From Cyclobacterium sp. (lineage in GTDB: Bacteria; Bacteroidota; Bacteroidia; Cytophagales; Cyclobacteriaceae), in the NCBI RefSeq assembly GCF_014762705.1, contig NZ_JABURL010000110.1:1-56638 (forward strand): 56,638 bases of DNA. Reading direction: 5' to 3'. The position numbers and the translations under genes were made by a program. Below the pieces are notes generated by a model. That model was not told where the DNA came from. It saw only the letters and a list, made by a program, of their open reading frames with translations, and did not search any database. Each line of letters opens with the position of its first letter. Position 1 is the stretch's first letter. Positions 47,746 through 56,638 of this stretch are shown here, piece by piece.

Positions 47746-47776
47746 TTGTGAGAAAAAAAACAAAAACCTACCTTTG
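47746..47776 (+). promoter_or_regulatory. Promoter of the tRNA-Asp array
   Basis: TTG at 47746-47748 and TACCTTTG at 47769-47776 are separated by 20 nt and match the Bacteroidota -33/-7 consensus. The array begins about 145 nt downstream, with no other promoter seen between. Confidence 0.75.
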
Positions 47777-47893
47777 CATCACTTCAAAAGAGAAGTAGAA
47801 AAGAGACAAAATATTAAGTAAAAATTCAACCTTATAAACACCGAAAATAATAGCTGGTACTTTTACCTTTTCAGGCAAGTCCGGACGGTCAAA

Positions 47894-47921
47894 GGTTTGA
47901 ACTTTTGAAATATAAAATATT
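47894..47921 (+). repeat. Partial array copy (T-arm end and spacer)
   Basis: The sequence GGTTTGAAC, followed by the 19-nt spacer TTTTGAAATATAAAATATT, is the diverged end of a further unit in front of the first complete one. It shows the array has lost or started from an older copy. Confidence 0.7.
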
Positions 47922-48157
47922 GGAGTGGTAGTTCAGCTGGTTAGAATGTCCCGACTCGTCGGGAAGGACGCTGGTTCGAACTTTTGAAATATAAAATATT
48001 GGAGTGGTAGTTCAGCTGGTTAGAATGTCCCGACTCGTCGGGAAGGACGCTGGTTCGAACTTTTGAAATATAAAATATTGGAGTGGTAGTTCAGCTGGTT
48101 AGAATGTCCCGACTCATCGGGAAGGACGCTGGTTCGAACTTTGAAATATAAAATATT
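47922..48157 (+). repeat. Three tandem truncated tRNA-Asp-like copies
   Basis: Units start at 47922, 48001 and 48080 (79, 79 and 78 nt). Each repeats the first 27 nt of the intact tRNA-Asp (acceptor 5' strand and D arm), then replaces the anticodon arm with TCCCGACTCGTCGGGA, a perfect 6-bp hairpin with a CTCG loop, then has GGACGCTGGTTCGAAC, which holds a T-loop but lacks the 3' half of the T stem and the acceptor 3' strand. The 19-nt spacer TTTTGAAATATAAAATATT closes each unit and also precedes the true tRNA. Units one and two are identical; unit three differs by a G to A in the hairpin loop (48116) and one fewer T in the spacer. They cannot form a cloverleaf, so they are not tRNAs. Confidence 0.92.
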
Positions 48158-48231
48158 GGAGTGGTAGTTCAGCTGGTTAGAATGCCTGCCTGTCACGCAG
48201 GAGGTCGCGGGTTCGAGTCCCGTCCATTCCG
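48158..48231 (+). tRNA. tRNA-Asp (GTC)
   Basis: A complete 74-nt cloverleaf: acceptor GGAGTGG with CCATTCC (one G-U), D arm GTTC/GAAT, anticodon arm CCTGC-CTGTCAC-GCAGG with anticodon GTC, T arm GCGGG-TTCGAGT-CCCGT, discriminator G. CCA is not encoded. It is the last, intact member of the array and is followed 8 nt later by a terminator. Confidence 0.97.
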
Positions 48232-48239
48232 CAGGAAGA

Positions 48240-48285
48240 AACCCTAATGGCTTAATTTATAAGCTGTTAGGGTTCTTCTTTTTAA
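48240..48285 (+). terminator. tRNA-Asp terminator
   Basis: AACCCTAA pairs with TTAGGGTT (8 bp), with an inner GCTTA/TAAGC stem, followed by CTTCTTTTT. Confidence 0.9.
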
Positions 48286-48657
48286 ATGTGGGGCTAATTC
48301 TGGGGCTATTTGTAATTTTTTTTTTCTTCGGATATGTCAAAGGGTTGAAATTCCAAGCTATTCTGTTTTACTTGGATTTTATTATCTTTTAGCTGGAGAA
48401 GCTCATTGGGGATATTAAGTCGAAATAATTTTATGTTCGAGTTTTCAAATAAACTTCAACCACTCCCCTGCCCTGTTGAAATAGCAATCCTTCCCTTTTA
48501 AATTTAAATCACAAACTAAACACCAACTAGCACTTTTTTGGCGACACAACTTAATCAATTGGTAATAAGTTAATTAATATAAATATTTTCAACTAAAATA
48601 CTTTTATTTCAGCCAAAATTTGGTTAAATTAAGGTATAGTCTTTAACTGTTGAAGCC
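48286..48657. other. Junction region after tRNA-Asp, no gene seen
   Basis: A tandem of two 12-mers, TGGGGCTAATTC and TGGGGCTATTTG (48289-48312), directly follows the terminator and resembles the short direct repeats seen next to tRNA-integrated Bacteroidota elements. No integrase gene is present in the window. The remaining sequence is AT-rich, with a palindrome CCAAAATTTGG before the 76-residue gene. Confidence 0.45.
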
Positions 48658-48888
48658 ATGAAATTTATCATCAAACTTATCCTTGTGTCCTTTATTGGCA
48701 TGGTAGCCATGTTCGGTGCCCTGGGCAGCGAGAACGAATGGCCAGGTCTGATAGTGGCAATTTCGGTGTGGGTTTGGTTTATCTATTCCCTATCTAAACC
48801 GAAGGAATACAATTCCGACAGAAAGACCAGGGAACTGGAGCGAAGAAATGAAGAGCTTCTAAGGAAACTGGAACAAAGAGGTCACTAA
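48658..48888 (+). CDS. Small membrane protein with coiled-coil tail
   Basis: A 76-residue protein with two hydrophobic helices, about residues 3-22 and 28-45, then a charged helix, TRELERRNEELLRKLEQ, that should form a coiled coil. No family recognised. It is the first gene after the tRNA, forward strand, with no partner close by. It could be a phage- or island-borne small membrane protein; no function is claimed. Confidence 0.65.
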   Translation: MKFIIKLILVSFIGMVAMFGALGSENEWPGLIVAISVWVWFIYSLSKPKEYNSDRKTRELERRNEELLRKLEQRGH

Positions 48889-48940
48889 TAATCGGGTCCA
48901 GTAAAATTTTTCTTTCAATAACCCAAAAGCAGAAATACCA

Positions 48941-49173
48941 TCAAAGGTCCAGTTTCAATCCTTCTATTTCCAATTCATTGATGTGCATACCGGCCAGGAT
49001 CAAGTCGTCTCCTTCGATGGCTCGCAGGATTTTTTGAATCAGCTCATTTAGCTTTTTTCCTTTTTCCAATCTTTCAATTGATCCAGGTTCTGGTCTCTCA
49101 GCTGGTTGATCTTCCGTTCAATCTGGGCTTGCCTGTTTTTCAACTGCGTTACGATCAGGGAGATGGCTTTCAT
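48941..49173 (-). pseudogene. Frameshifted small coiled-coil gene
   Basis: From the ATG at 49173 the frame reads MKAISLIVTQLKNRQAQIER and on to KINQLRDQN, then stops after 33 codons. A -1 shift around the AAC-CTG codons restores a second open stretch of about 47 codons reading SIERLEKGKKLNELIQKIL and ending GLKLDL at TGA 48941. Together they give a helical protein of about 77 residues without the stop, so a one-base deletion (or a sequencing error) has broken it. Found by reading the strand; the family is unknown to me. Confidence 0.6.
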
Positions 49174-49357
49174 TGTTTATTAAATTAACTTTTTTGCGTT
49201 AATAATTTAAACATTAAAATTCAGTTTTTTCTCACCAGCAACCTTCTTCTCTGTTTAACAATCTCTTCCAAAAATGAGTATTTCAAAAGTAATCTCCGCT
49301 TCTGGTATATCACTATTTCTGAAAATATGCATATCCATTGATCCAGGCTCCTAAACC

Positions 49358-49380
49358 AAAAAAAGCCCCTAAGGGCTTCC
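49358..49380 (-). terminator. Terminator after the 85-residue gene
   Basis: AAGCCC and GGGCTT form a 6-bp hairpin followed on the reverse strand by a run of seven T, directly after the stop at 49383. Confidence 0.7.
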
Positions 49381-49382
49381 TT

Positions 49383-49640
49383 TCAGGTTTTTGATTTCCT
49401 GGCCTTCCCCCCTTTCGGAGCAGTTACCTTTTTGCTGATATAGGCCGTATGGGTTTTTCCATATTGATCCGGCTCTTTCAGCGAGGCGACTTCAAATACC
49501 AGGTATTCCCTGCCATCGTAGTCGACCATGTGGCCTTTTAAGATTTCCTCCAGTGTTTCTTTGGAGATGGATACACGGATGATGTTCAGATCCTTTACCT
49601 GGGTTCCTTTGCCGATGTAGGTTTTTTCAAATTGTGACAT
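49383..49640 (-). CDS. Hypothetical protein, accessory region
   Basis: An 85-residue soluble protein. It is mostly beta strand and ends in a basic tail (KGGKARKSKT) that could bind nucleic acid. I do not recognise a family. It starts with ATG at 49640 and has its own terminator. The upstream gap and the broken gene downstream suggest a patchwork accessory region. Confidence 0.65.
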   Translation of the reverse strand: MSQFEKTYIGKGTQVKDLNIIRVSISKETLEEILKGHMVDYDGREYLVFEVASLKEPDQYGKTHTAYISKKVTAPKGGKARKSKT

Positions 49641-50067
49641 GACTTTAACTGTTTAAGGTTTGAAATTTGATTATGCCCAAGAGAACGGGGGCTGCCAGGG
49701 ACTCCCAAGCCAAGGGACGGGCAAAAAAATGGTGGAAGGCTTCCTTTGGAAAACCCCATTTTTTTGATCGGGCGAAGCGTATCCTTTGCGGGTGTACCGC
49801 TGCCCCCATCTTTGCATGGATCATAATTCACAACCGGGAACAGTATAGGTCATGGCATTGGAAAAGCCTACAATAAAAGGAATCGAGGAATGGTCCTTTA
49901 CAGTAAAAGGGTTTATCCAGCTATAGAAAATAGGGGAATTTGAAGGCCATGGACGAACGGCTGTTAAAGATCCTGTAATTTGAATTCCCTGGTAAAAGAT
50001 AAAAGAAGAATACCCCATCCAACTTATACAGAAAAACTGAATGATAGTGCATAGAGGCCTAATTAAT
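49641..50067. other. Gap with an 11-bp inverted repeat, no gene seen
   Basis: CAAAAAAATGG (49722-49732) and CCATTTTTTTG (49756-49766) are perfectly complementary across a 23-nt loop that includes GGAAGGCTTCC. The surrounding 150 bp is GC-rich compared with its neighbours. The overlapping open frames on both strands lack coding character. It could be a structured RNA, a terminator or a remnant of a mobile element. Confidence 0.5.
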
Positions 50068-50742
50068 CTATTCCGGAACCGGATCAAGAATTCCAGGGTG
50101 ATTGTTGCCAGGTTTGTTAACTTCACTGGATATTTCGTAGGCCTCCATGGAATCGGCCGGATAAGCGTTCAACAATTTTAGCAAATCCTTGGGGTTTTGA
50201 TCGGGATCCAACCATAATTTTTCTTCTTCCCTGGTCAAAATCACTGGCATTCTGTCATGAATTTTTTCCATTAGTGCATTTGGAGCGGTGGTGATAATTG
50301 AGTATGAATTATACAATTCCCCATTAGGATTTTTCCAACTCGACCAGAGCCCGGCGAAAAAAAAGAACTCCCGTTCGGAAAGGTAAATCCGGAATGGCTG
50401 CTTTCCTTTTTCCTTCTTTTTCCATTCAAAAAAACTGTCCGCCAGTACCAGGCATCTTTTGTTGTTTACTAAAAGGGGTTTATAAGAGGGTTTGTCAAGC
50501 AGGGTTTCTGAGCGGGCATTGATCATTTTGTAACCTACTTTTTTATCTTTTGCCCAATGGGGTACCAAACCGAAATGAAAGATATCTATTTCATCAGGCT
50601 TCTCCGAAGTGACCACCGGAGCCATTTGCGAAGGAGCAATGTTGAAGGAAGGCTTCCAGTTTTTTGCCTTTTCGGACAACCTCAACTTCAATTGGTCCTC
50701 AATAATCTTAAGGTCTTGTTTTTCGGAGTATCTGCCACACAT
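50068..50742 (-). CDS. yedK: SRAP domain protein (YedK/HMCES type)
   Basis: A 224-residue SOS response-associated peptidase-fold protein that forms a thiazolidine DNA-protein crosslink with abasic sites in single-stranded DNA. All catalytic residues are in place: C2 exposed after Met removal (MCGRYS), N75 in MINARSE, E106 in SFFEWKK and H162 in KIHDRMPVIL. The length is typical. ATG at 50742. SRAP genes are often found beside DNA repair or mobile element genes in Bacteroidota; here no other repair gene adjoins. Confidence 0.93.
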   Translation of the reverse strand: MCGRYSEKQDLKIIEDQLKLRLSEKAKNWKPSFNIAPSQMAPVVTSEKPDEIDIFHFGLVPHWAKDKKVGYKMINARSETLLDKPSYKPLLVNNKRCLVLADSFFEWKKKEKGKQPFRIYLSEREFFFFAGLWSSWKNPNGELYNSYSIITTAPNALMEKIHDRMPVILTREEEKLWLDPDQNPKDLLKLLNAYPADSMEAYEISSEVNKPGNNHPGILDPVPE

Positions 50743-50944
50743 GGTTTCCTCTTAATGGTAAGTATTAAATTTACAAATAAAATGGCTACGTTTTACCTTG
50801 CCCTCTGCTATTTGGCTTAGGGATAGCAATGGAAATCCTTTTTTGGAAGGGAAGCGCAGGGGAAAAAAGATTGGAATGGAAGCATCGCGGTAGCCCGACC
50901 CATAGGGTAAGCCCCAAAATATCCTGACTTAGCTATGAAAACAA

Positions 50945-51244
50945 TTACCGGACCATCATTGCGCTCAAATTCTCATAACATTCCACCGCCAACTCCCGCA
51001 GCTCTTCCCCGGAACGAGTTATCGGAAATTCCAGACAACGTTGCATATAACGCATATAGGTAGTCGAAAAATCATCTATGAATTCCTCGGGAATCCCCAT
51101 CAACTTTTGAGTCAGATCCAAAATACCTAAATAATGACTGTAACCGGCATCCAGATTCAACCTGTCCAGGCCCAAAATCAACTGATTGTGTTTCAGGTCC
51201 TGGAGTATCAACTCAATAATCAACTCGTCTAAGGTCATATTCAT
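50945..51244 (-). CDS. Hypothetical helical protein
   Basis: A 99-residue acidic protein, all helical by composition, with LDELIIELILQDLKHNQLI at the start and ELRELAVECYENLSAM at the end. No signal peptide or membrane helix, and no family recognised. It lies alone on the reverse strand between the SRAP gene and the XRE regulator and is divergent from the latter. ATG at 51244. Confidence 0.65.
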   Translation of the reverse strand: MNMTLDELIIELILQDLKHNQLILGLDRLNLDAGYSHYLGILDLTQKLMGIPEEFIDDFSTTYMRYMQRCLEFPITRSGEELRELAVECYENLSAMMVR

Positions 51245-51478
51245 CTTAACATCCAGGCTTTCGGTTAAATGGAGGCCACTCTCTATTTGCGGTCAACTTT
51301 GATGCAGTCTTACAAAATTCAAAAATCCCTGACCCCTACCCTATTCTGATAAAGCATAACTTATTTTCTGAATATGAAAGGGTGGTGGGGAAAAAAGATG
51401 AAAATCCCAACCAATTCCAGATGGTCACCAGCATAAATTATCCCTTCTACGGATATTTTATTAAAAAATCCCTTATTA

Positions 51479-51498
51479 CCTTAGAGCCATATCTAAGG
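51479..51498 (+). promoter_or_regulatory. Palindromic operator before the XRE gene
   Basis: CCTTAGA and TCTAAGG form a perfect 7-bp inverted repeat with a 6-nt spacer, 20 nt before the XRE start. The left arm overlaps a near-consensus -7 box, TACCTTAG (51477-51484), as expected for an autoregulated repressor gene. Confidence 0.6.
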
Positions 51499-51517
51499 AA
51501 ATGGTTAATTTTGATCA

Positions 51518-51973
51518 ATGACAGATAGTAACAACATGCCAGGAAAAATCCATCAAGGCCGTAATATCAAGCGGTTCCGTGAAATGCTGGGGATCAAGCA
51601 GGAAGCCCTGGCCCATGAACTGGGTGCCGACTGGTCCCAAAAGAAAATTTCACTCCTTGAGCAAAAGGAAACGGTGGAAGATGCCATCTTGGCCCAGGTT
51701 TCCGAAATCTTAAAAATCCCCGTGGAAGCCATTCAGAATTTTGACGAGGAGCAGGCGGTGAATATTATTGCTAATACCGTAACTACTGTTAATGACAATG
51801 CAACAGGGCAATTATTCCAGATCAACCCAACCATCAATACCTCAGAAAAATGGTTAGAGGCATTGAATGAAATCAAAAAACTGAACGAAGAAAAAATTGC
51901 TCTGTACGAGCGGATGTTAAAAGAGAAGGATGAGATGATGGTTAGGTTGGAGAAACTCTTGGAAGGAAAGTAA
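51518..51973 (+). CDS. XRE family regulator with coiled coil
   Basis: A 151-residue regulator. Residues 8-70 form a Cro/C1-type helix-turn-helix (FREMLGIKQEALAHELG, then WSQKKISLLEQKE). The middle has low-complexity polar sequence, and residues 105-150 form a coiled coil likely for oligomerisation (KWLEALNEIKKLNEEKIALY). The architecture is common in Bacteroidota mobile elements. It has no partner gene in the same direction. The palindrome at its promoter suggests it represses its own transcription. Confidence 0.88.
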   Translation: MTDSNNMPGKIHQGRNIKRFREMLGIKQEALAHELGADWSQKKISLLEQKETVEDAILAQVSEILKIPVEAIQNFDEEQAVNIIANTVTTVNDNATGQLFQINPTINTSEKWLEALNEIKKLNEEKIALYERMLKEKDEMMVRLEKLLEGK

Positions 51974-52139
51974 ACGCATATTCCATCGATACTGGAACAA
52001 AAACGAGCTCTTCATCACCTCCAACAGTGACTCTTTAAAAGTGAGACATAGGTACAGTGGATTTTCAATAAGTCCCATCCTTATTATGCACTGGTTAATA
52101 AGGAATACTTATAACCATTTCTAGACTAAAGTAAATTTT

Positions 52140-52646
52140 CTAACTCCACTTCCGCACCCTAACTTCAATTTCTTTCCTAGTCTTTGTGCTCGCATACATT
52201 GTGTTAATAGTCAAAAGCTTTTGTATTTTAGATACTGCTTTAGCCTTGGAACAAATGCAATTTGTGACTAGAAGATCGAAAATCCAAAAAAGTCCGTGAT
52301 ATTCTAAGGAATGTCTTTCTGCACATTTTCTCACAAGCTTATCGCTACTAAGAACGATACCGTTTTCAAGACCGAATGCCACGTAAATTACCGATCGATC
52401 TTCGGGGGAAAGGCCTTTTGGAAAAGCCATTTTATCCATTTTTGAAAAGTCCTCTTCGTTTAGGATGTGGACAATTAACTTTTCTACCTTTTGGTATGCT
52501 ACCAACACCTGCTTTTGTTCTTGGAACAATTCATTCATTACATCAACTGTCGTGTGAAGCTGAAGTTCCAATTGAAAAAAATCGGAAATAAGATCCAGTT
52601 CAATCAAATCAATAAAGATACATGCGTCGGTAACAGCAATTCTCAT
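52140..52646 (-). CDS. PIN-domain protein, likely toxin
   Basis: A 168-residue protein with a PIN-like nuclease fold: aspartates in VTDACIFIDL at the N terminus, an acidic residue in VMNELFQEQ, LSPEDRSVIYVA in the middle and SSDKLVRKCAE near residue 115. PIN domains of this size are usually ribonuclease toxins. The ATG overlaps the stop of the upstream HTH-ImmA/IrrE gene by one base (TGATG), so the pair is translated as a unit. This matches a toxin-antitoxin or regulator-effector arrangement. Active-site completeness cannot be confirmed by eye. Confidence 0.72.
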   Translation of the reverse strand: MRIAVTDACIFIDLIELDLISDFFQLELQLHTTVDVMNELFQEQKQVLVAYQKVEKLIVHILNEEDFSKMDKMAFPKGLSPEDRSVIYVAFGLENGIVLSSDKLVRKCAERHSLEYHGLFWIFDLLVTNCICSKAKAVSKIQKLLTINTMYASTKTRKEIEVRVRKWS

Positions 52647-53701
52647 CAGATAACCAGGTTTTCCTTCCTAAACTCCGCCAACTTCTGATTATTCAATGCA
52701 GCTGCTTTGCTGATACTAATAAATTCTTCTGCCAGTGCCCTGAACAAAAGTTGGGAAAACCGATTCGAGTGCTCTACGCCTTCATAGGCCACCGGCTCAC
52801 TGGATCGATATCCTAACTGGGTAAAGACAATGTAAAACTGTTTGAGGTAATTCTCGGATATTAATCCAAGGTCCTTGGCTCTGTAAACCAAAGCCTGCAT
52901 GGATATACCATACTGTTGTTTTATCGCAGAAAGTTCTTGAAAAGAAAGTTTGAACCTTTTACCACCCAGTTCAATTTTCATGGTCTTCTCAGGAATTAAC
53001 ATGGCTGCGGCAAAGGCATGGCAGTATTTTTCTTTCTGTTTTTCTTCAAGCCCGTTCACATCCAATAGGAGGTGCGCTAATTCATGAAGGGCGGTAAAGC
53101 GTTTTCTATCCAGTTTATTTTCAAATTTGGATTTATTTAAAACAATCAACGGAATATCTTTTCCATTGACCCAAGTGGAAAATCCATCAAATGATTCAGT
53201 AGATTCAATTTCCAAAACCTTCACATGATGGTCTTCCAACAGCTCAACTACATTCGATATTGCGTCTCTACCCAAACCCCAAGTTTCCCTTAACTTTTCG
53301 GCGGCTTTTTCGATAGCTTCATGTGAGTCAATAACCATACTTTCCAAAGGATTTACAAATTTGGTTTCTATACCCAATATTTCCTCTAGCTCAATGTAGC
53401 GACTGAGCTCATTTTTAGCAATTTCCACAATCCGGCTTTTCTCCTTACTTGGATAATTTTTCAATTTGCGAAATTCTATTACACCAAACTCAACTTCAGT
53501 ATTGGTATGGAAATAATCCGGCCTGACATGGAGGGCATCTGCTAGTATGCCAATCATTTCAGCATCGGGCACTACTTGTCCTTGCTCATATTTGCTCAAA
53601 GCCTGTTTGGTGACAAAGTTATGAATGCGGTCTGCCAAACCTTGAAGGGATAAGCCATTCATCAAACGGGCAGATTTGAGACGTTCGGCTAAATATTTCA
53701 T
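52646..53701 (-). CDS. HTH and ImmA/IrrE metallopeptidase fusion
   Basis: A 351-residue protein joining an N-terminal XRE helix-turn-helix (residues 5-60, LQGLADRIHNFVTKQALSKY) to a C-terminal ImmA/IrrE zinc peptidase with the HExxH motif H206-E207-xx-H210 in ALHELAHLLLDV. Such proteins act as antirepressors or stress-sensing antitoxin components. It is followed directly by the PIN gene in an overlapping TGATG. A perfect palindrome sits just upstream of its -7 box, suggesting autoregulation. Confidence 0.9.
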   Translation of the reverse strand: MKYLAERLKSARLMNGLSLQGLADRIHNFVTKQALSKYEQGQVVPDAEMIGILADALHVRPDYFHTNTEVEFGVIEFRKLKNYPSKEKSRIVEIAKNELSRYIELEEILGIETKFVNPLESMVIDSHEAIEKAAEKLRETWGLGRDAISNVVELLEDHHVKVLEIESTESFDGFSTWVNGKDIPLIVLNKSKFENKLDRKRFTALHELAHLLLDVNGLEEKQKEKYCHAFAAAMLIPEKTMKIELGGKRFKLSFQELSAIKQQYGISMQALVYRAKDLGLISENYLKQFYIVFTQLGYRSSEPVAYEGVEHSNRFSQLLFRALAEEFISISKAAALNNQKLAEFRKENLVI

Positions 53702-53739
53702 TGTATTTGAAATGTTAAATTTATTTAATAGATATAACG

Positions 53740-53747
53740 CAAATGTA
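53740..53747 (-). promoter_or_regulatory. -7 box of the HTH-ImmA/IrrE gene
   Basis: Reverse strand TACATTTG fits TAnnTTTG and lies about 40 nt upstream of the ATG. Confidence 0.55.
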
Positions 53748-53759
53748 GAGTTTGAGTTT

Positions 53760-53788
53760 ACGAATATATAAATTATTCATATATTCGT
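53760..53788. promoter_or_regulatory. 10-bp palindromic operator
   Basis: ACGAATATAT and ATATATTCGT form perfect arms separated by 9 nt, directly upstream of the -7 box of the HTH-ImmA/IrrE gene and over its expected -33 region. This is a candidate binding site for the encoded HTH protein. Confidence 0.65.
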
Positions 53789-53886
53789 CAATTATTTATG
53801 ACAAACGGTCACTGACACCACAGGAGTTTTTCACTGACAAAATGACTTAAAATCAGTGAAATATCTTAATTTTTCAATTTTGGAGC

Positions 53887-53925
53887 TTGATTGACAAATA
53901 TGGTTTTATATTTGTTATTTGTCAA
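53887..53925 (+). promoter_or_regulatory. Promoter with embedded inverted repeat
   Basis: TTG at 53887-53889 and TATATTTG at 53907-53914 (17-nt spacing) form a good promoter. The arms TTGACAAATA (53891-53900) and TATTTGTCAA (53916-53925) are perfectly complementary and bracket the -7 box, so a bound repressor would block transcription of the DUF2188 gene and those after it. Confidence 0.7.
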
Positions 53926-53946
53926 CCAACAAAAATAACACATAAA

Positions 53947-54174
53947 ATGGCAAAAGGTAAAAATCAACACGTAGTCACCCATTCAGACGGCTGGGCTGTC
54001 AGAGGTGAAGGAAACGGAAAGGTAACAATGGTTACCGCGACGCAACGGGAGGCTATTCAGATAGCTCGGCAAATAGCACAGAAACAGCAATCCGAATTAT
54101 TGATCCATGGAAAAAATGGACAAATCCGGGAACGGGATTCATTCGGAAACGATCCATTTCCACCAAAGGGGTAA
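53947..54174 (+). CDS. DUF2188 domain protein
   Basis: A 75-residue protein matching DUF2188: QHVVTHSDGWAVRGEGNGK at the start and HGKNGQIRERDSFGNDP at the end. These small proteins are widespread in accessory regions and of unknown role. The ATG at 53947 is chosen rather than an upstream in-frame start, because it follows the promoter by a suitable leader. It is the first gene of a three-gene forward set, 46 bp before the coiled-coil protein gene. Confidence 0.87.
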   Translation: MAKGKNQHVVTHSDGWAVRGEGNGKVTMVTATQREAIQIARQIAQKQQSELLIHGKNGQIRERDSFGNDPFPPKG

Positions 54175-54220
54175 AGCCCCTTCTCTTATTCTCTTTAACT
54201 AACCACTAAATGAAAATAAC

Positions 54221-55090
54221 ATGGCCAAAAAATTCAATGCTTCACAACTTCGAAGTAAATTAACTCAGATTCAAAATAAACAACGATCTGCTGTAAATCG
54301 CTACAATCAGAAAGTTAGAGAATACAATAGGAAAGTTACCCATGCAGTGAACAATTACAATCAAGCAGTTAGGCAACATAATGCCAGAGTAAAAGCGAAT
54401 CGACAACGGTTAAATTCAGCCATAGCTAGACTGAATTCACAGACTTCTATCCGTTATTCCGCTACTACCACATCCTCTTACAGACTCTATCAAAGTTACC
54501 AAGAACTTGATAATCGCTTTGAGTCTGGTTATTTGAATGATAGGTATGGGGATTGGGTAGATTTAGCCGAAAGAGAAGCTGCTAATAGTGCTGAACTTTC
54601 AAAATCATTGCAGGTACCGGCTGAATCAAGTCAATTCTTAGGACCAGCCATAACATCCTCCATATCCAATGAACTAAAAGGAATATCTGAAGATCTAGAC
54701 AATAGATGGAAGGGAGCCATATTCTCGTTGAACCCACAAAATCCGGATGCTGCACGACATTTTTGCACCAGTTCCAGAGAGGTGATTGTTCAGCTGATCG
54801 AATTGAAAGCATCGGATGAAGAAGTCAAAGAAAATTATCCAAGAATAAAATTAACTGAAAATGGAAAACCTTCAAGAAGGTCTAAAATTGAATACCTACT
54901 TCACCGAAATCAGCGGGATGCCTTGGCCGATTTCACTGAAGCTGACATCGAGGATATCATGCTTCTCTTTCGAGATTTTAATAATGGGACCCATGGTTCC
55001 GCTGGAAAATATTCCTATGATCAGCTTCTGAAATTAAAGAATAGGGTGGAGGACTCAATAAAGTACTTGTACCAGGTCGCTTACCATTAA
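54221..55090 (+). CDS. Coiled-coil protein, possible pPIWI-associated nuclease
   Basis: A 289-residue protein. Residues 1-75 form a long basic coiled coil with recurring Y-N/Q repeats (NRYNQKVREYNRKVTHAVNN). The C-terminal half, from about residue 150, carries NPDAARHFCTSSREVIVQL, then SRRSKIEYLLHRNQRDAL, which looks like the predicted pPIWI-associating nuclease domain family. Family assignment is from memory of motifs and uncertain. The genomic position, next to a HTH-ImmA/IrrE and PIN pair and under a palindrome-controlled promoter, fits a defence role. It is followed 12 bp later by an unknown gene. Confidence 0.6.
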   Translation: MAKKFNASQLRSKLTQIQNKQRSAVNRYNQKVREYNRKVTHAVNNYNQAVRQHNARVKANRQRLNSAIARLNSQTSIRYSATTTSSYRLYQSYQELDNRFESGYLNDRYGDWVDLAEREAANSAELSKSLQVPAESSQFLGPAITSSISNELKGISEDLDNRWKGAIFSLNPQNPDAARHFCTSSREVIVQLIELKASDEEVKENYPRIKLTENGKPSRRSKIEYLLHRNQRDALADFTEADIEDIMLLFRDFNNGTHGSAGKYSYDQLLKLKNRVEDSIKYLYQVAYH

Positions 55091-55102
55091 ATTTTCAAGC
55101 AA

Positions 55103-55966
55103 ATGCTAAACTGGCGAGAAATAACATCCGACCTCCCTGATATCGAGCAAATTGTAATCCTATCAGATGAAAGGATCACTGATTTCAGAAAATGGACTTT
55201 AGGCCAGTTTTTAGAGAATGACGATAAAACAGCCTATGGAATATTAATTCACTCAAATAAAATAGTTAAGCCTGAAAGTTTTGCTTTTTGGACCCCATTT
55301 CTGATAACAGACCTTGGAGTACCAGGAGACTATAAAGGAGAGGATTTAGCTCAATACCTTTTTGCGTTCAAAGAAATTTTAAAAAGCTATGAACATAGAT
55401 TTTTATTGATGGCTCGTACAAGTCAATTATCCGGTGGACAAGTTTTCCATTTTGATTTTTATTTGAATGGCACCTATTCCAGAGCCCTTTCTTTGATTGA
55501 AGGTTTTATGATCCTGTTAGATTCTAAAAATTATTTGGCTGCGTCTCATCTTGTTAGACCCTATCTGGACAATTTCCTTCGACTATTTGCGGCTCATTTG
55601 GTCAAAAATCCACATGAATTTGCCAATGAAGTAATGAAAGGAAAAAAGGTTGAGAAATTCTTCGATAAAGAAAATCAAAAACAAGCTCTTAAGGATTGGT
55701 ATTTAAGAGAGAAAGCCTCCGAATCATATCCTTGGATCAACGATGTTTACAAACATACCTCAGATTATATTCACTTCAGCTCAAAGCATATTTATAATCC
55801 AATTGTGAAAGTTGATTCAGAAAACTCCACTATTGGAACATACCTTACCAAATATGACTCAGATACTATTACCGACTTTAACAGAATAGAAGCAGTATTG
55901 GTCATGATTGAGATTTCAAACTGTATTTTGAAATACGCCTATGGTTGGGCTAGAACTAAAATATAA
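55103..55966 (+). CDS. Protein of unknown function, accessory region
   Basis: A 287-residue soluble protein I do not recognise. The N-terminal 100 residues look like a mixed alpha/beta domain (SDERITDFRKWTLGQFL). The C-terminal part is helical with RALSLIEGFMILLDSKNYLA, ASHLVRPYLDNFLRLFAA and HTSDYIHFSSKHI, reminiscent of DUF5677-like helical domains, but this is not certain. It is encoded 12 bp after the coiled-coil gene and likely in one operon with it, so it may be its partner. GC content is lower than in the core genes. Confidence 0.7.
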   Translation: MLNWREITSDLPDIEQIVILSDERITDFRKWTLGQFLENDDKTAYGILIHSNKIVKPESFAFWTPFLITDLGVPGDYKGEDLAQYLFAFKEILKSYEHRFLLMARTSQLSGGQVFHFDFYLNGTYSRALSLIEGFMILLDSKNYLAASHLVRPYLDNFLRLFAAHLVKNPHEFANEVMKGKKVEKFFDKENQKQALKDWYLREKASESYPWINDVYKHTSDYIHFSSKHIYNPIVKVDSENSTIGTYLTKYDSDTITDFNRIEAVLVMIEISNCILKYAYGWARTKI

Positions 55967-56073
55967 TAAAAGTAGGCTACTTTTTTGATAAATTAAAAAA
56001 ATAGTAATTTATTTTATCTCTACTTCTATAGTTATCCAAATTAATGAAATAAATTCTTGTTTAACCTATATAC

Positions 56074-56631
56074 TTATTTATACCAGTTTAAATTATATTG
56101 GTCTATTACTTCGATAGTTTTTTTAAGAAAGAAAAAGAAATTAATTTCATTTGCCCCCATGAGAACCCCATTCTTTAAAATTTTATATTCTGGATTAAAG
56201 TATATACTTCGGCCAGAAGGATCACTATTTAATTTAGTAAGTTTCCATTCAATTATTAAATCGTCAAACTGGAGTGTTCCGTTTTCCTCTTTTGATATTT
56301 CCCATTTATGTTTCTCATATGTGAGGAATGGTAGTAGAAGATTAAAAAATAAGTCCTTATTTTCAATATAAATATTATTATTTTTAGTTTCTTTTATTTT
56401 ATACAAAGAATTTAAAAATTCTGTTCTATCATTAAAAAGTTCATCTAATATTCTAAGGATTATCAATAGTCTAATATTATAAAGTTCAAGATATTTTCCG
56501 TTAACTTTAGTATATGTGTTACCTTTAAACTTAATGTCCTTGTCTCGTATTTTTAATATATTTCTAATTATCACAATATTAGATTTATTTACTGAAAAAA
56601 TAATGTATTGATTGCACATAATAAAATACAT
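56074..56631 (-). CDS. AT-rich orphan hypothetical protein
   Basis: A 185-residue predicted soluble protein with a very high content of Asn, Ile, Lys and Phe, reflecting the AT-rich DNA. It has helices around residues 50-85 (RLLIILRILDELFNDRTEF) and a strand-rich end with SGRSIYFNPEYKI. No family recognised. Base composition is clearly below that of the rest of the window, so it is likely acquired. The start lies 8 bp from the window edge and might be further upstream. Confidence 0.6.
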   Translation of the reverse strand: MYFIMCNQYIIFSVNKSNIVIIRNILKIRDKDIKFKGNTYTKVNGKYLELYNIRLLIILRILDELFNDRTEFLNSLYKIKETKNNNIYIENKDLFFNLLLPFLTYEKHKWEISKEENGTLQFDDLIIEWKLTKLNSDPSGRSIYFNPEYKILKNGVLMGANEINFFFFLKKTIEVIDQYNLNWYK

Positions 56632-56638
56632 ATATTAT

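Follow-up and report, generated by a model that had tools for sequence, protein, structure and literature searches.

Hairpin-armed tRNA-Asp relics in Cyclobacterium as probable scars of tRNA-anchored GIY-YIG nuclease elements

The array beside tRNA-Asp

The window, i.e., the whole analysed stretch of 56,638 nucleotides from a draft assembly of Cyclobacterium sp. (GCF_014762705.1, contig NZ_JABURL010000110.1), holds a single tRNA gene, an intact tRNA-Asp(GTC) on the forward strand at 48158-48232 (ARAGORN and Rfam; the end is placed at 48232 or 48231). It is the sole tRNA-Asp found in the draft genome, for which 37 tRNAs above the cut-off were listed; 30 of them were typed, one as Asp, and the seven untyped ones are all 82-89 nt long, one being a tRNA-Tyr seen in neighbouring loci. 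Upstream stands an array of tRNA-Asp mimics, which had been noticed in a sequence-only reading and is real: Tandem Repeats Finder reports a 79-bp unit in 3.7 copies with 98% matches at 47894-48184, exact copies of the first 27 nt of tRNA-Asp start at 47922, 48001 and 48080 as well as at 48158 in the tRNA itself, and hairpins of the form TCCCGA-N4-TCGGGA at 47949, 48028 and 48107 differ only in their loops (CTCG, CTCG and CTCA). Within the window genome the unit is restricted to this array, other matches being weak and partial.

Each unit consists, in this order, of tRNA-Asp positions 1-27, a perfect 16-nt hairpin that stands where tRNA-Asp has its 17-nt anticodon arm, a stretch left over from the variable region and T arm that reaches into the T loop, and an AT-rich leader of 18-19 nt. 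The three units that had been put at 79 bp each were confirmed on the forward strand at 47922-48157, except that they measure 79, 79 and 78 bp and follow a truncated outermost unit at 47894-47921, which is made of a T-loop remnant (GGTTTGAAC) and the AT-rich leader. In unit 1 (47922-48000) the tRNA part occupies 47922-47948, the hairpin TCCCGACTCGTCGGGA 47949-47964, the variable-region and T-arm remnant 47965-47981 and the leader 47982-48000; unit 2 (48001-48079) has the same anatomy with hairpin TCCCGACTCGTCGGGA at 48028-48043, and unit 3 (48080-48157) carries hairpin TCCCGACTCATCGGGA at 48107-48122 and a leader shorter by one T. The units had also been described as lacking the 3' half of the tRNA; the 3' end is indeed absent, but the 17 nt after the hairpin (AGGACGCTGGTTCGAAC) are similar to the variable region and the T arm as far as the T loop. 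Tandem duplication of the tRNA gene was rejected, as units without anticodon arm and 3' end are not complete tRNAs, and the hairpin was ruled out as a terminator because no T run follows it.

The tRNA-Asp transcription unit probably has its native promoter at 47746-47778 on the forward strand (TTG-N-TACCTTTGCA), which we take to be of the Bacteroidota type; several congeners have this sequence, or one very like it, ahead of tRNA-Asp. The array sits between this promoter-like sequence and the tRNA and is, from its position, probably transcribed. The tRNA is followed on the same strand by a terminator-like inverted repeat at 48240-48274 (arms 48240-48254 and 48260-48274), and similar sequence also lies 3' of a tRNA-Asp 3' relic on another contig of the genome, C20. 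This repeat is probably the near end of an integrase island that would part the tRNA from a GIY-YIG gene at a putative junction here.

The stretch after tRNA-Asp (48232-56638; see also contig C20, locus L085) resembles the terminal part of an island that had integrated at the tRNA 3' end. Its genes encode a SRAP protein (50068-50742), a helix-turn-helix/IrrE-like protein (52646-53701) with a neighbouring open reading frame (52140-52646), a predicted pPIWI-associated nuclease (54221-55090) and a weakly matched DUF5677 protein (55103-55966), so that it is possibly a defence island.

Small GIY-YIG genes beside tRNA genes

The sequence-only reading had named the lack of a related array in close genomes among its refutations, and this lack is not borne out. 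A search with the unit over 59 genomes, the window genome included, gave matches in 52, many of the weaker ones covering the tRNA part only, and hairpin units with the tRNA-Asp D-arm flank are present in 12 of 12 Cyclobacterium genomes at 1-8 per locus (counted on fetched loci). The intact tRNA-Asp lies on the same piece as the units in 11 of the 12; in G004 the array breaks at a contig end. Two of the 12 are single-contig assemblies (G002 with eight units, G011 with five), and as these arrays are longer than that of the window, an assembly artefact was rejected for such arrays. Outside Cyclobacterium, units adjoin tRNA-Asp in two genomes (G012 and G031) and stand at contig ends in two more (G029 and G032), while a diverged unit was read by eye in G022. 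Across these relatives the stem of the Asp unit is almost fixed and the loop variable; a chimera with tRNA-Met or tRNA-Thr (loop CTCAT/CTCGT) was dropped because congeners show a fixed stem with freely varying loops. Among 395 genomes drawn from the phylum the Asp relic pattern appeared in three, all of the window's family and one of them the window's own. The Asp version of the pattern is local, and the set of named loci described below adds Saprospiraceae to its range. A true tRNA amplification was seen in G021 (L055), where five intact tRNA-Asp and two tRNA-His genes stand in tandem, with no hairpin relics in the stretch read.

In several relatives a GIY-YIG gene of about 85 codons follows tRNA-Asp; behind it come another tRNA-Asp relic and, in many cases, the same terminator again. 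The order intact tRNA, terminator, small GIY-YIG gene, hairpin-armed relic and, often, the same terminator recurs in many relatives, in which further relics lie upstream between promoter and intact tRNA, and the GIY-YIG domain is recognised by PF01541 with E-values down to 1.6e-19. The array belongs to this recurrent architecture of tRNA, nuclease and hairpin, which bears out the earlier view that ordinary tRNA gene duplication does not explain it and supports the proposal of a selfish repeat or recombination site.

The window genome has seven PF01541 matches, two of them in large open reading frames (604 and 456 aa); the others lie at tRNA-Val, at tRNA-Met, near tRNA-Pro (two fragments, of which one scores under the family cut-off) and at a tRNA-Asp 3' relic. 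At tRNA-Val, Met and Pro this genome combines nuclease genes or pieces with hairpin relics, and at tRNA-Arg(TCT) and Arg(CCT) such relics stand without a nuclease. The Asp nuclease of this strain is broken: it has an in-frame TAG, its conserved arginine reads glycine, and it lies on contig C20 beside a gene of the phage integrase family (PF00589) and a tRNA-Asp 3' fragment. A single contig of C. plantarum (G005) carries both tRNA-Asp and the corresponding nuclease, about 123 kb apart, and before the nuclease stand a fragment of the tRNA 3' end and the beginning of the same integrase gene. This suggests that the Asp nuclease once adjoined the tRNA-Asp of the window and was probably pushed away by an island. 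With the nuclease broken and beyond the island, the array would now be a fossil. The same genes could be taken to mean that the array is an attachment-site array of a tyrosine-integrase island, given that the PF00589 gene adjoins the tRNA-Asp 3' fragment on C20 and that similar sequence occurs in C. plantarum and G003; the island end, however, carries the tRNA 3' end, whereas the array is made of 5' parts upstream of the tRNA, and we find this origin hardly credible.

The linkage between nuclease and tRNA was scored in 104 clusters of PF01541 matches listed from the 59 genomes (open frame below 250 aa, one nuclease scored per cluster), which were taken irrespective of tRNA, so that small GIY-YIG loci number at least 104. 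With flanks of 400 nt upstream and 350 nt downstream, same-strand tRNA sequence is present at 57 of these 104 listed loci (upstream in 54, downstream in 41, on both sides in 38 and on neither in 47), against about 0.3 expected by chance from simple arithmetic with 37 tRNAs in 6.08 Mb. An intact tRNA lies within 120 nt upstream in 38 of the 104, and the linked tRNA would be the target of the nuclease. The isotypes among the listed loci include Met (11), Asp (9), Val (9), Pro(GGG) (7), Asn (4) and Arg(CCT) (3), and the arm swap is found in GIY-YIG loci at Val, Pro, Met, Ala and other tRNAs. The named loci, obtained by protein search in Cyclobacteriaceae, Saprospiraceae, Marivirga and other Bacteroidota, carry tRNA sequence in 22 of 23 cases (21 Asp and one Val; no tRNA was detected in the Marivirga locus).

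At gathering score, Rfam gave only tRNA matches and no group I intron in the window and in 40 further loci at which ARAGORN had placed no tRNA close by, and TIGR01453 was matched by two Asp nucleases only weakly, below the cut-off. A phage or plasmid vector was rejected, as one Val nuclease had no match in 50,697 phage records and one Asp nuclease had none in 72,556 plasmid records; viral contigs yielded three distant relatives.

In a tree of 126 nucleases the tRNA label changes 27 times against a mean of 71.1 in shuffles, a value as low being reached in 0 of 200, with the clustering inflated in part by shared descent. The alignment has 74 columns and resolves few deep forks. The Asp clade (97/88) holds 27 Asp rows among 29, from Cyclobacteriaceae and Saprospiraceae together with the Marivirga row without a tRNA; eight of nine rows are Val in the Val clade (100/97) and ten of eleven are Met in the Met clade (100/94), and there are Pro groups too. 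Exceptions are L119, a Saprospiraceae locus at tRNA-Val within the Asp clade, two Asp loci (L240 and L246) outside it, and the scattered Asn loci. The nuclease clades thus largely follow tRNA isotype. The nuclease is under purifying selection, with dN/dS of 0.05-0.23 in 13 of 14 chosen pairs (one was saturated) and the catalytic Y, Y, G, R, H and E kept in 76-78 of 78 tRNA-linked rows.

A separate clade (98/97; 36 of 36 rows) is free of tRNA and is assumed here to be Ssn; the tRNA-linked rows branch outside this palindrome-associated group, yet are not one clade themselves, since the label 'free' needs seven changes on the tree. Similar sequence lies on both sides of the gene in 29 of the 47 listed tRNA-less loci (score at least 25; shuffles at most 14) and was palindromic in those read. 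Side examples are L158, L184, L162, L178 and L222, small tRNA-less GIY-YIG genes between other repeats (GTGGTTTCGACAGGCTCAACCACCG; GTCATTCC...GGAATGACG; others), a parallel pairing of nuclease and palindrome. These loci bear on an account in which a Ssn-like nuclease acts on incoming or replicating DNA, e.g., in transformation, by cutting single strands at the palindrome, and the relics are arrays of target sites and not homing scars. It is in keeping with the presence of this well supported clade in the same genomes, with the repeats beside its genes, and with a stem nearly fixed per isotype and a variable loop. However, the position of the tRNA-linked nucleases outside that clade speaks against it, and it leaves unexplained why the palindrome lies at the position of the anticodon arm, why the tRNA is restored and why its 3' end is duplicated together with the terminator; we consider the account unlikely.

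Anatomy and decay of the relics

Hairpins were listed as perfect stems of at least 6 bp touching tRNA sequence (207 rows), a list that alone cannot show conservation, and junctions were scored for the 180 hairpins in the scored isotypes. Of 145 left junctions scored, 64 coincide exactly with the base of the anticodon arm and 39 lie 4 nt inside the arm; of 87 right junctions scored, 60 coincide exactly with the base, and both junctions lie within 1 nt of it in 29 of the 52 hairpins with two sides scored. Val relics are the cleanest (13 of 22 exact at both junctions). Met relics have one hairpin in the anticodon 3' strand or variable region and some have a second one replacing the D arm. A second hairpin is also frequent in Asp relics, where it lies in the T arm, and in the Arg(CCT) relics and one Ser relic the hairpin is a pure insertion.

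Among relics found by their flanks alone, perfect stems occur in 33 of 37 for Asp (at least 6 bp; imperfect in L079, L101, L111 and L121), 8 of 8 for Pro, 5 of 5 for Val and 3 of 3 for Met; ordinary or variant tRNAs had been set aside from the contexts found, i.e., five of 42 for Asp (L006, L018, L104, L131 and L198), and intact tRNAs likewise, two of seven for Val and four of seven for Met. In the few and related Pro relics one stem pair changed on both sides, being C-G in two, T-A in six and mixed in none. Substitutions per site amount to 0.042 in the D-arm flank (37 contexts, including three ordinary or variant tRNAs) against 0.009 in the stem (28 contexts), and per isotype the stem is nearly fixed while the loop varies.

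Upstream of the intact tRNA, most relics begin at tRNA position 1 and extend into the T arm; the relics 3' of the nuclease begin in the D arm. Among the 64 Asp relics not known to be downstream of a nuclease, 48 start at position 1, and 56 end at 49-63 and eight at 74-75; all 12 upstream Pro relics start at 1 and end at 50-65, and the eight upstream Val relics end at 50-65. Downstream of the nuclease, 25 of 25 Asp relics start at 3-24, with four ending at the tRNA 3' end, 11 at 63, which is the second hairpin, and the rest at 44-71; the 12 Val relics, with starts at 13-21, extend without exception to the 3' end, and the six Pro relics start at 3-22, five of them reaching the 3' end. Left ends of Met relics were left out because the scored range did not fit the position of the Met hairpin. 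The two sets of extents indicate that a core of about 45 bp (D arm, hairpin and T arm) flanks the segment of leader, tRNA, terminator and nuclease on both sides.

Such extents also bear on the earlier idea of a decoy, here an RNA decoy or antitoxin in which the array is transcribed in the tRNA leader and the mimics titrate RNase P, RNase Z or an anticodon-cutting nuclease. The place of the array between the promoter-like sequence, shared with congeners, and the tRNA would suit it, as would a hairpin about the size of the replaced arm (16 versus 17 nt for Asp). The predicted fold of one unit, however, nests the hairpin in a helix of D and T loops and gives no cloverleaf, with the caveat that the program misfolds the intact tRNA too; the downstream relics usually have no tRNA 5' end; and GIY-YIG enzymes are, to our knowledge, DNA nucleases. 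The decoy idea found no positive support: relics flank the tRNA on both sides and lie 3' of the nuclease genes, where the same terminator is often repeated, a pattern that speaks for DNA rearrangement. We regard a decoy as very improbable.

The differences between loci are reminiscent of homing genes, which are gained and then decay in cycles. At tRNA-Arg(CCT), C. plantarum has three units, each made of a tRNA 5' part with hairpin CCTGCCTGCCGGCAGGCAGG and a nuclease, followed by the intact tRNA; the window genome has a near-identical flank, the same hairpin in the same place and the intact tRNA, with a short spacer replacing the nuclease and a second insert in the D loop of the relic. A relic with a short spacer, such as the 79-bp units, can therefore be what remains after nuclease loss. 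At tRNA-Val, pieces of the nuclease persist in G006 (35 codons) and C. lianum (G009; a stop after 12 codons), a short open reading frame of doubtful kinship is present in G001, G004 and C. plantarum have island-like sequence, G003 has several upstream relics and no adjacent nuclease, and G002 has zero relics in 1,500 nt upstream and six downstream. A clean pre-insertion site, as opposed to decayed copies, was not seen in the Val and Arg loci compared.

Passive decay could be proposed instead, with tRNA copies arising by slippage, dead copies catching a REP-like palindrome and the nuclease gene hitchhiking. The near-identical 79-bp copies do look like products of slippage or unequal crossing-over, and palindromes of the same families are dispersed in the window genome (33 places, three of them in the array itself, versus four for a reversed control). 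In G038 (L082), a genome of the same order, TCCCGA-N4-TCGGGA occurs in 190 copies versus 0 for the reversed control pattern. Passive decay predicts neither nuclease clades by isotype nor purifying selection on the nuclease, nor that hairpin junctions should cluster at a single arm in several tRNA types and genera, and we judge it rather improbable.

Two side observations concern sequences resembling the relics. Partial 5S rRNA-like copies, read by eye in G002 (L072, 1100-1850), carry the same palindromes (GATCCGCCGCGGCGGATA and TGCCTGTCCCGACTCATCGGGAT), so that hairpin-bearing relics may extend beyond tRNA genes. ARAGORN types some relics or damaged copies as tRNAs with odd anticodons (L101 as Val-GAC, L111 as Cys-ACA, L117 as Ile-GAT and Ser-CGA), and odd-anticodon tRNA annotations in Bacteroidota genomes may thus be false.

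Origin of the relics and its implications

We propose, with a probability of about two in three, that the units are scars of chromosomal, tRNA-anchored homing elements with an isotype-specific, SegB-like GIY-YIG nuclease. The nuclease would cut the tRNA gene, recombinational repair would insert or amplify the cassette, and the displaced tRNA half would be rebuilt so that a working tRNA is kept and the old piece becomes a relic. Repeated rounds together with unequal crossing-over could then produce arrays, and the cell would come to depend on the remaining intact copy. If the old pieces are dead and the intact tRNA is possibly the sole copy, loss should be lethal, which would stabilise the element. 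The arm might turn into a palindrome in one of two ways: a DNA hairpin could be excised at its base and another put in, which agrees with some GIY-YIG enzymes cutting at branch points, or selection could favour relics resistant to the nuclease. Cleavage, mobility and the origin of the hairpin are deduced from the sequence.

The closest tested system is SegB of T-even phages, a free-standing GIY-YIG homing endonuclease in a phage tRNA cluster, which cuts inside tRNA genes, has the motif RAWTSGAAC and drives tandem amplification of a tRNA-containing segment by homologous recombination (PMC13096335). In our own comparison this motif resembles the reverse complement of the tRNA T loop; the break points of upstream relics in the T arm fit SegB-like cutting, and the array can thus be read as the scar of repeated cutting and repair. 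Both systems place a small GIY-YIG nuclease next to tRNA genes; SegB, however, belongs to phages and the elements here are chromosomal. That study reports no isotype preference near segB, whereas the clades here largely follow isotype, and the passages considered describe neither hairpin-swapped relics nor split-tRNA restoration (PMC13096335).

Likenesses to other systems are partial. A small GIY-YIG gene with palindromic repeats nearby recalls the single-strand-specific Ssn nucleases and NTS palindromes of Neisseria, whose repeats are not known to be tRNA derived; here the tRNA-linked nucleases branch outside the tRNA-less, repeat-flanked clade. Tyrosine-integrase elements insert into tRNA genes and restore them, and like them the present elements break a tRNA gene and supply the replacement part, but the unit has no integrase, the breaks lie in the D and T arms and the relics contain a foreign hairpin. 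REP elements are dispersed palindromes with the RAYT transposase; short perfect palindromes of the same families as the relic hairpins are dispersed in the genomes here, but the nuclease is GIY-YIG and the palindrome in the relics often replaces the anticodon arm.

Several observations count against the homing reading. Unequal relic numbers, as at tRNA-Val in G002, defeat simple nesting without later rearrangement, and the intact tRNA retains the presumed target, so that self-cutting needs explaining. Moreover, 47 of the 104 listed small GIY-YIG loci have no flanking tRNA, 4 nt of the arm persist at 39 of 145 left junctions, and some hairpins are situated in another arm (D or T) or were inserted without replacing anything. 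The tRNA-linked nucleases are not one clade, the isotype link is not absolute, and the Asp relic pattern occurs in just 3 of the 395 genomes from the phylum.

We suggest more tentatively, as a possibility that we would not yet favour, that these are a new class of chromosomal selfish element in which an isotype-specific GIY-YIG nuclease attacks DNA hairpins formed by tRNA genes, swaps an entire arm, at its base, for a palindrome (one hairpin for another), kills the host gene and carries the only working copy; the host could then not lose the element. The entries listed by searches of open-access full texts (for some queries the top entries), a body outside which most subscription journals lie, included no paper combining bacterial chromosomal tRNA genes, GIY-YIG nucleases and hairpin relics.

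If the homing reading holds, selfish nucleases in bacterial chromosomes would have a permanent target in essential tRNA genes, and their clades, specialised by isotype, would form a natural series for the evolution of GIY-YIG specificity. The elements would represent a possible route for a selfish gene to become indispensable, and the exact arm swap, if it is an exchange of DNA hairpins, would be a new kind of rearrangement. The relics would also be a source of false tRNA annotations and would explain the tRNA-like repeats at which several assemblies break off.
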